NCBI GenBank assembly: GCA_013151955.1
Contig: JAADHH010000074.1
Coordinates: forward strand, 1 to 42,248
Length of the DNA stretch: 42,248 nucleotides
Source: Chloroflexota bacterium
Lineage (GTDB): Bacteria > Chloroflexota > Anaerolineae > Ardenticatenales > JAADHH01
Reading direction: 5' to 3'
Shown here: positions 25,410-28,484 of the stretch, one piece after another
Layout of the letters: every line of letters begins with the position of its first letter
Position numbering within the stretch: the stretch's first letter is position 1
Program-made: the position numbers and the translations under genes
The notes under the pieces: model-generated
Told to the model about the DNA's origin: nothing
Databases searched by the model: none
Seen by the model: only the letters and a program-made list of their open reading frames with translations

Positions 25410-26267
25410 TTACAGAATCACCTGCCCCAGGGTCAGGGCCCCAATCAGAACAAAGAGCACACCCAGCCCGCGCTCGAGAACTTTCTGGGGAATGCGGCTG
25501 GCCACCTGCGATCCCAATTGCCCGCCCAGAATCACGCCCGGCACGGTGAAGATGACCAGACTCAAGACCGTATCGAGAACGCCACCGCCGGTCTGCACAA
25601 AACGAAGCAAGTGTCCGGCGGACGCGGCGAGTGCCGTGACCGCAACCACGAACACGCTGGTCGCCACCGACACCTTGCTGGGCACACGGCAGCGCTGCAA
25701 AAGAAAGTAGCCGTTCATTTCGCCCAAGCCGGTAGAGACCATGCCCATGAACATCGCCCCCAGGCCGGCCAGTATGCGCCCCTCCGTACGGTTGCAAACC
25801 GTGTAGCGAATTTCCTCGCCGTCTGATGTGATCAGGCAAGTTTCCGCGGACTCACCACCGTATTGCCCCTCGATGGCCTCGTCCATTCGCACAACGTCTG
25901 TGTGGTCCGGCGCGCGCAGAAAGCTGGCAGCCACGACAAATAGTCCGACCCCTAACGTAGTCATGAGGACCACAGGGGCCACAACGCCGGCAATCCAGGT
26001 ACCCAACAAAGCCATGGGCACACAGACTACCAGCAACGACACCCCCAACCGGTAGTCAATCAACCGTTGGCGAGCATAGGCAAACAGTCCGCTGGCAAAA
26101 CCGAAAACTTCGGTAATCAATGCCGTACCGATGGCCACTTCTGGGGGAAGACGCAGCGCCAGAAGAAAAAGGGGCGAGAAAAACGTGGCTCCCTCCACTC
26201 CAGAGGCCATAGCAATCGTGGCAATCAAAATGGAAACGGGAAACATAAACCAATATTGTAAGTCCAT
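25410..26267 (-). CDS. TauE/SafE family sulfite exporter-like permease
   Basis: Multi-TM; repeated (ATIAMASGVEGATFFSPLFLLALRLPPEVAIGTALITEVFGFASGL; GMVSTGLGEMNGYFLLQRCRVPSKVSVATSVFVVAVTALAAS). Confidence 0.88.
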   Translation of the reverse strand: MDLQYWFMFPVSILIATIAMASGVEGATFFSPLFLLALRLPPEVAIGTALITEVFGFASGLFAYARQRLIDYRLGVSLLVVCVPMALLGTWIAGVVAPVVLMTTLGVGLFVVAASFLRAPDHTDVVRMDEAIEGQYGGESAETCLITSDGEEIRYTVCNRTEGRILAGLGAMFMGMVSTGLGEMNGYFLLQRCRVPSKVSVATSVFVVAVTALAASAGHLLRFVQTGGGVLDTVLSLVIFTVPGVILGGQLGSQVASRIPQKVLERGLGVLFVLIGALTLGQVIL

Positions 26268-26326: not shown

Positions 26327-27214
26327 TCACGTATTCAACGTCCAATCGTACGCTCTGTGCGCGAATTCAATACGGTCCCCTTGCGCCGCAATCCAGCGAT
26401 GGCGTTCACCATCCTCCGGCAGATAGCGCAAAAGGAGAGAGTGCAGGCCCGGCTGCCCTCCGAAGTCGCCGGCATACCAGTGAAAAATCGAAGAAAGTCG
26501 CACAACGCCGGCATCCTCGTCCACCTCGACATCCGCATCCACAAAGTTTTGGGCGGCCAGGTCCAATTGGTCGTGAATCCTTTCCGCATCATAGACTCCG
26601 ACGGGAGGACACGAACGGCTGGCACAATTGAGCGCAAAATGGATGCGCGGGTCTGGTTGCGGCATGACCCAGGCAGCACGCGGATCGGTCGAGGCGAAGT
26701 GCGGCCCCGGCACGTAGGGGTTTCCACGGTTGCTGCGCAAGATGCCCTGTTCGATATCCTCGCAACTAAAACGATGCCCGCCGACCTCATAGGCGGCACG
26801 ACGAAAGAATCGAAACAGGCCAAACCGCTCTTCCGTGACGCTCTCCTGCACATCGAAAGCGATGACCGCATCGATCACCAGCGCATTATAAAGGTTGATC
26901 CAGAATGCAAGTCGTTCTTCCCGGGTCGTGAGCGTGGTTAAATCCAGGTTGCGCAATTGCGGCGTACAGGCAGTACGGTACATCGCATAAGCGTCACTCT
27001 CACGAAGGAGGCTGTAGTTCACGTGACGGCCGGGAGCGTCCATGGCCTCGGCTTTGAACGCATTGACCGCGCGTTTCAGCTCGGCCGAGAGCGCTTCCCC
27101 AGAGGGAGAGCCTTCCGGTGACGGTGCCCTGTTCAGCACTTCTTCTGCGCGCACGCCCAGCAGGGTGTTCAACAAACGCTCTCGCCCGGCGATCAGGTTG
27201 TCAATCAGTGTCAT
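26327..27214 (-). CDS. DUF547 domain protein
   Basis: TREERLAFWINLYNALVIDAVIAF; PRIHFALNCASRSCPPVGVYDAERIHDQLDLAAQNFV. Confidence 0.85.
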   Translation of the reverse strand: MTLIDNLIAGRERLLNTLLGVRAEEVLNRAPSPEGSPSGEALSAELKRAVNAFKAEAMDAPGRHVNYSLLRESDAYAMYRTACTPQLRNLDLTTLTTREERLAFWINLYNALVIDAVIAFDVQESVTEERFGLFRFFRRAAYEVGGHRFSCEDIEQGILRSNRGNPYVPGPHFASTDPRAAWVMPQPDPRIHFALNCASRSCPPVGVYDAERIHDQLDLAAQNFVDADVEVDEDAGVVRLSSIFHWYAGDFGGQPGLHSLLLRYLPEDGERHRWIAAQGDRIEFAHRAYDWTLNT

Positions 27215-27222
27215 TCGTCCTC

Positions 27223-27771
27223 CTAATAATCCTCCAGCGAGACGCCCAAACCATCGGCCAGCCGGTTCACATAGGCAAAGTAAGCGGTGATCTGGGCGAT
27301 GTCCAGGATGGCGTGGTCGCCGAAGCCGGCCAACCGCAACGTCTCCACGTCGGCCTCCACGACATCGGCCGGCGTACGGGTCAGCTTCGCCACATAGCCG
27401 AGCATGACCCGGTCCGCGCTGCTGAGGGGAGCGCGGGTGTAATCTTCCTTGAGTTGCGCGACCAGCGCATCGTCACGTGTAACCCTACGGAGAGCCTCCC
27501 CGTGGTGGGTGATTCAGTAGCGACAATGGTTCAATGTTGATACCACCAGGCCGATCATCTCCCGTTGATAGCGCTTGAGTGGAGACGGGCCAAACATCAG
27601 GGTATGATACAGGGCACGGTGGTCGAGCATGGACTGCGGGTTCAGGCTGTGAATCTTCATGATGTTTGCCGCCCGCCCGGTCCGCGGATCAGCACACAAG
27701 GCGTAAGCGTCAGACAGCGACTCGGTGGCCTGTTCCTCATCGATCATTTGGATCCAGGCTTTGTTCTTCAT
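27223..27771 (-). CDS. AhpD/carboxymuconolactone decarboxylase-like peroxidase-related protein, candidate selenoprotein (in-frame TGA at 27514-27516 in CxxU motif)
   Basis: ORFs 27514-27771 and 27223-27405 are in the same frame, separated by a single TGA; read-through gives ...GLVVSTLNHCRY[U]ITHHGEALRRVTRDDALVAQLKEDYTRAPLSSADRVMLGYVAKLT..., 182 aa. Confidence 0.85.
27487..27503 (-). promoter_or_regulatory. Candidate bacterial SECIS hairpin for the AhpD-like gene
   Basis: ACGGGGA-GGC-TCTCCGT, 7-bp stem, G at loop position 1, loop begins 18 nt after the TGA. Confidence 0.65.
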
Positions 27772-27836: not shown

Positions 27837-28385
27837 TCACGGAGCGGTTGCCAACTCCTGTAAACGGGCCAACAAGGCGGATACCGGAGGCCGGTCGGTG
27901 GGGTCGTGGCTGCGGTAGGCCAGGCGCACGATTCCGGTCGTGTCCACGATGAAATCGCCACCGAGTTGCGTGGAGTCTCCCTGAACGCCCCGCCAACGGC
28001 GGCCGGCACGCATGAGCTGTACGTACCGCCATGTCGTCCGCAGATTCCAAGAGCGCAGCCAGGAGCGTTCCAGCCCATAGGCACGATACACCTGCCGCTC
28101 CTCGTCCAGCAAGACGGGGAACGATACCCCTGTTTCCTCCAGCCAGGCATGGGCCAGCGGCGAAGAGCCAAAGGTAACCACCAAGACAGAAACGTTCAGT
28201 TTGAGGAGTTCGTCTTCCTGTTGGCGCAACTGCGCCACATGCTCGCGGCAGGGCAGTCAGCCAAGGTGGCGAAGAAACACCAGCAGGGCATTGTGCCCTC
28301 CCTGCAAGGTATCGTCCAGCGAGACGGCCCGGCCGTCCACGTCTGGTAATGAGAATCTGGGGGCCTGGTCGCCGGCCTCAATCAT
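27837..28385 (-). CDS. Peroxiredoxin-like (AhpC/TSA, Prx-like2/SelU-type) protein, candidate selenoprotein (in-frame TGA at 28257-28259 in UxxC motif)
   Basis: ATG 28385 preceded by AAAGGAG; read-through gives MIEAGDQAPRFSLPDVDGRAVSLDDTLQGGHNALLVFLRHLG[U]LPCREHVAQLRQQEDELLKLNVSVLVVTFGS..., 182 aa. Confidence 0.87.
28222..28237 (-). promoter_or_regulatory. Candidate bacterial SECIS hairpin for the Prx-like gene
   Basis: TGGCGC-AGTT-GCGCCA, 6-bp perfect stem, G at loop position 2, 27 nt after the TGA. Confidence 0.6.
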
Positions 28386-28484
28386 GGCGCATCTCCTTTA
28401 CTTGTGGTTGAACGAAGACATCAAGATACGCAATCCTGACGTTGTCGAGGGCAGGTATCTTACCTGTTTCGCGTTTTGGGTTTC

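Follow-up and report, generated by a model that had tools for sequence, protein, structure and literature searches.

The question raised by this locus is whether a TGA codon inside a conserved reading frame ends translation or is read as an amino acid. On the minus strand of the window (the whole 42,248-nt stretch of DNA that was analysed), the frame of a peroxiredoxin-like (Prx-like) protein runs from an ATG at 28385 to a terminal stop, TGA, at 27839-27837. Its lone interruption is a TGA at 28259-28257, and the remainder of the frame is open and conserved. A preliminary description of this DNA had reported the start codon, the single TGA and a strong Shine-Dalgarno sequence, all of which direct reading reproduced at exactly the same coordinates. 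It had also stated that open reading frame prediction recovers only a truncated product, and the 133-aa ORF that begins with GTG (28238-27837) is indeed the sole standard ORF in this frame. When the TGA is read through, the product has 182 residues and includes the motif RHLG-U43-LP-C46-RE. The features of the gene are as follows.

27837..28385, minus strand: predicted Prx-like (SelL-related) selenoprotein gene, 182 aa, with Sec43 in a UxxC motif (from sequence, profiles, homologues and a structural model)
28257..28259, minus strand: in-frame TGA, putative Sec43 codon (TGA in 22 of 24 homologous loci)
28393..28399, minus strand: Shine-Dalgarno-like AAAGGAG, 7 nt before the ATG (read directly)
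28222..28237, minus strand: hairpin resembling a bacterial SECIS, 6 bp, with an AGUU loop that begins 25 nt after the UGA and G second in the loop (from covariation and shuffles)

The TGA codon of the Prx-like gene

Evidence that the TGA belongs to the gene came from a search for homologues of the Prx-like protein in 346 genomes of the same class (E <= 1e-25), which returned 24 matches in 23 genomes. TGA occupies the homologous site in 22 of the 24; one of the other two does not cover the site (in genome G150), and the other has TGT (locus L044 in genome G287). This last is the sole close homologue with Cys, and its genome has no selA match. Because both flanks of the TGA fall within one protein family (NF040769, residues 7-174) and 22 of 24 loci share the codon, the interrupted frame is more than a chance arrangement. 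The draft state of the assembly from which the window comes, with 166 contigs, would allow the TGA to have arisen through an error in sequencing or assembly, or the gene to be a pseudogene ended by a real stop. The same TGA, however, is found in about twenty other genomes whose proteins are 39-61% identical and in which both flanks are conserved; moreover, the rest of the frame remains intact, and the genome encodes a complete selenocysteine pathway. The conserved TGA refutes this explanation at the level of the family, and for the copy in the window we consider it very improbable.

The homologues that carry a name were found in metagenome assemblies of Chloroflexota/Anaerolineae; one from an Actinomycetota assembly likewise has TGA at this site. 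In the alignment of the homologues, which prints Sec as C, every sequence has Sec or Cys at positions 43 and 46. Alignment of the TGA column with Cys or Sec was a check that the preliminary description had proposed, and this is what was found. Some more distant homologues (L023, L025) have CxxC instead of UxxC. A SelL-related homologue, L042 (G107:C348:131-670), has TGA at both redox positions, making it a double-Sec UxxU variant; the best selA match in its host genome, G107, has an E value of 5.1e-61, which is weak beside values of about 1e-170 in other genomes. A UxxU variant has been reported among ocean Prx-like 2 proteins (PMC2398784).

The second line of evidence is the selenocysteine machinery of the window's own genome, a draft of 3.02 Mb in 166 contigs that is 86% complete. 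Profile searches identified selA (560 bits), selB (343 bits) and selD (382 bits), together with one tRNA-Sec (selC) above the cut-off (71.9 bits), which ARAGORN confirmed as tRNA-SeC with anticodon tca. All four genes whose presence had been proposed as a check are thus in the genome, as expected for a bacterium that makes selenoproteins. The selD locus (L008, G000:C136:10377-11309) is itself interrupted by a TGA within its SSCAGU motif, and SelD of this genome is likely a selenoprotein. In the class as a whole, selA scored above the cut-off in 277 of the 346 genomes. The drafts of three genomes with TGA-bearing genes gave no selA match: G111 and G130, where the TGA is in the Prx-like gene, and G005, where it is in the AhpD-like gene described below. 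These assemblies are probably incomplete.

A TGA that is translated could in principle specify another amino acid, such as Trp or Cys in a reassigned code, or be passed by near-cognate readthrough. Several observations argue against this: every homologue has Cys or Sec at the position; selA, selB and other genes lack inner stops; the TGAs that do interrupt genes sit at redox sites (U43, U86 of the AhpD-like protein and the CAGU of SelD); and a tRNA-Sec whose anticodon is UCA is encoded in the genome. Reassignment is rejected on conservation, and we regard it as more improbable still than an error or a pseudogene. The preliminary description had proposed decoding of the UGA as selenocysteine. 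The TGA occupies a site conserved as Cys or Sec, the sequence is coding on either side of it, and the Sec genes are in the same genome; taken together, the sequence data support this as a strong inference.

Bacterial SECIS elements have a small apical loop with a guanosine, as described earlier (PMC1088965), and the Prx-like gene has such a hairpin just 3' of the UGA, with G in its loop. The 51 nt after the TGA were aligned for 23 homologues. Two-sided changes were observed at five of the six pairs, and 23 cells of the alignment changed on both sides, compared with a mean of 5.7 in shuffled alignments, none of which reached 23, and with no more than 6 in slid controls. In one example, GCG...CGC is replaced by GCA...TGC, which substitutes Cys for Arg in the protein but preserves the pairing. 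The best stems after the TGA have a mean of 6.7 pairs; in 300 synonymous-codon shuffles the mean was 5.3 and the highest value 6.0. These data show that the hairpin is maintained by compensatory changes. When single downstream sequences were folded alone, the z-scores were weak (-1.85 to 0.06), and the alignment-based count of pairs was therefore needed. The minimum-energy fold of the window's own sequence is a longer stem that includes the UGA and is predicted to be more stable than the conserved short hairpin, which is thus a probable rather than a certain form of the active structure.

Fold and active site of the Prx-like protein

The preliminary description had assigned the protein to the SelU-type Prx-like2 group. 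The nearest curated family is instead NCBIfam NF040769, "SelL-related redox protein", which the product matches over residues 7-174 with 168 bits, above the cut-off of 120, and which is matched by all 23 aligned homologues. Pfam matches are to AhpC-TSA (76.8 bits), AhpC-TSA_2 and Redoxin. An AlphaFold2 model, for which the input was an alignment of the window protein with the proteins of the homologous loci, has a mean pLDDT of 92.8 and a pTM of 0.90, and confidently predicts a thioredoxin/peroxiredoxin fold. The top PDB matches of the model are archaeal Bcp peroxiredoxins, ResA, AhpE and human prostamide/prostaglandin F synthase, which we take to be PRXL2B of the Prx-like2 group. The CxxC of the human enzyme aligns on U43xxC46.

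U43 is aligned with the first Cys of the CxxC motif in both ResA and the human synthase, not with the peroxidatic Cys of classical peroxiredoxins: in 2cx3, that residue lies opposite C46, which places U43 three residues ahead of it. Classical peroxiredoxins have a TxxC or TxxU motif with the peroxidatic Cys or Sec at the fourth position, whereas the motif here is UxxC. Given that Sec takes the first position of CxxC and not that of the peroxidatic Cys, thiol-disulfide or PRXL2-like chemistry is more probable than simple peroxidase activity. Judged from the alignment, the chemistry is most likely thioredoxin-like: Sec43 would act as the nucleophile, attacking a disulfide or peroxide substrate, and Cys46 would resolve it as a selenenylsulfide. 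The substrate may be a peroxide, a protein disulfide or another compound.

A second TGA-containing gene and a possible relay

A neighbouring gene on the same strand, 65 nt from the Prx-like gene, also contains an in-frame TGA, which was absent from the preliminary description. It and the genes downstream of it are listed here.

27223..27771, minus strand: AhpD-like peroxidase-related protein (TIGR01926), 182 aa, C83xxU86 (from profile, homologues and PDB alignment)
27514..27516, minus strand: in-frame TGA, putative Sec86 codon of the AhpD-like protein (TGA in the best 25 matches in the class)
27487..27503, minus strand: SECIS-like hairpin of the AhpD-like gene, 7 bp, with a GGC loop 17 nt after the UGA (from folding and alignment)
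26327..27214, minus strand: DUF547 protein, 8 nt after the AhpD-like stop (from the ORF list and Pfam)
25410..26267, minus strand: TauE/SafE-family permease, further downstream (from the ORF list and Pfam)

The read-through product contains the motif NHC83RYU86ITHH and scores 143.4 bits against TIGR01926, above the cut-off of 81.8, with Sec as the second residue of the CxxC/CxxU pair. U86 lies opposite the second Cys of CxxC in PDB 2pfx and 3c1l. The codon is as well conserved as in the Prx-like gene: each of the best 25 matches in the class contains a TGA, and the closest homologue with Cys (L077) belongs to G101, a genome that gave no selA match. The evidence for a SECIS-like hairpin 3' of this UGA is weaker than for the Prx-like gene. 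Among the ten most similar sequences, pairing is retained in 95.7% of pair cells and one pair covaries, with three pair types; the hairpin is present in some homologues, not in every one. An Rfam search of both hairpins matched no family. When the window was scanned for further frames split by a TGA near a Cys, no third candidate was convincing; the remaining frames were judged by eye to be chance frames overlapping other ORFs.

The explanation that best fits the whole of the data is that both adjacent minus-strand genes encode selenoproteins, and on the sequence evidence we consider this very nearly certain; the presence of the second gene adds weight to the reading of the first. The UGA at codon 43 of the Prx-like gene would be read as selenocysteine by SelA, SelB, SelD and tRNA-Sec, with insertion directed by the hairpin just 3' of it, and Sec would be inserted into the AhpD-like CxxU protein in the same way. 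To judge from the homologues, Sec-based SelL-related and AhpD-like proteins are widespread across this Chloroflexota class. Conventional gene calling cuts both genes at the TGA, such that the enzymes would be lost or misnamed.

The DUF547 gene is likely in the same operon as the AhpD-like gene, and the TauE/SafE permease gene is a possible member. In locus L037 (G106:C3), which has no AhpD-like gene, a DUF547 gene with 56% identity to that of the window directly follows a TGA-bearing Prx-like gene, which suggests a recurring link between Prx-like and DUF547 genes.

Once oxidised, the Prx-like protein would be recycled by a donor of the thiol or dithiol type, a role that the AhpD-like protein encoded next to it may fill. 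The two proteins might then belong to a single pathway, a selenium-based counterpart of the AhpC/AhpD couple, with the UxxC protein reduced by the CxxU protein. The position of the genes, side by side on one strand, is consistent with this model, as is the finding of an AhpD-like gene in 10 of the 23 class genomes that have the Prx-like gene, compared with 71 of 346 overall (raw counts that ignore kinship). On the other hand, 13 of those 23 genomes have no AhpD-like match at the cut-off used, and among the fetched loci, many with flanks of only 1.5 kb, no genome but that of the window has the two genes side by side. Recharging of the Prx-like protein by its CxxU neighbour is therefore attractive but unproven, and we hold a shared pathway to be a tentative proposal, with the odds against it. 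Slightly more doubtful is a dedicated, selenium-only relay in which C83xxU86 recharges U43xxC46 and the DUF547 protein takes part as a so far unrecognised partner or target. With its two genes side by side, this locus lends itself to a simple test of whether Prx-like and AhpD-like selenoproteins cooperate, a question left open in the 2008 ocean study (PMC2398784).

Comparison with known systems

Among proteins of known structure, human prostamide/prostaglandin F synthase (PDB 9us9/9usa) shares the Prx-like fold, and its CxxC (C44, C47) lies opposite U43 and C46. It has Cys where the window protein would have Sec, and the sequence similarity is only distant, so its substrate is not transferable. 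The thiol-disulfide oxidoreductase ResA has the same fold, with its CxxC opposite UxxC. ResA is a membrane-anchored protein of which the solved chains are soluble domains, and the window's Prx-like protein has no export signal by eye.

Selenoproteins of the Prx-like UxxC and AhpD-like CxxU types have been on record since 2005. The NF040769 or "Prx-like" UxxC selenoproteins of ocean metagenomes, as far as the passages on them describe (PMC1088965, PMC2398784), share with the window gene a PF00578-type domain, the UxxC motif, TGA at the first redox position and a bacterial SECIS-like hairpin with G in the loop. Unlike them, the window gene belongs to an Anaerolineae-type Chloroflexota, a lineage that those passages do not describe, and adjoins genes for an AhpD-like CxxU protein and a DUF547 protein. 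The AhpD-like protein matches the same family (TIGR01926) as the known AhpD-like CxxU selenoproteins (PMC13188914) and has Sec at the second redox position, with no essential difference. An adjacent Prx-like/AhpD-like pair was reported in 2008 (PMC2398784); it comprises the same two kinds of selenoprotein, a likeness established at the level of kind. The pair in the window has DUF547 and TauE/SafE genes downstream of it. Both families appear in a 2026 review, which also notes the clustering (PMC13188914). Both genes are thus members of already described selenoprotein families rather than a new kind, and the find is real and largely expected.
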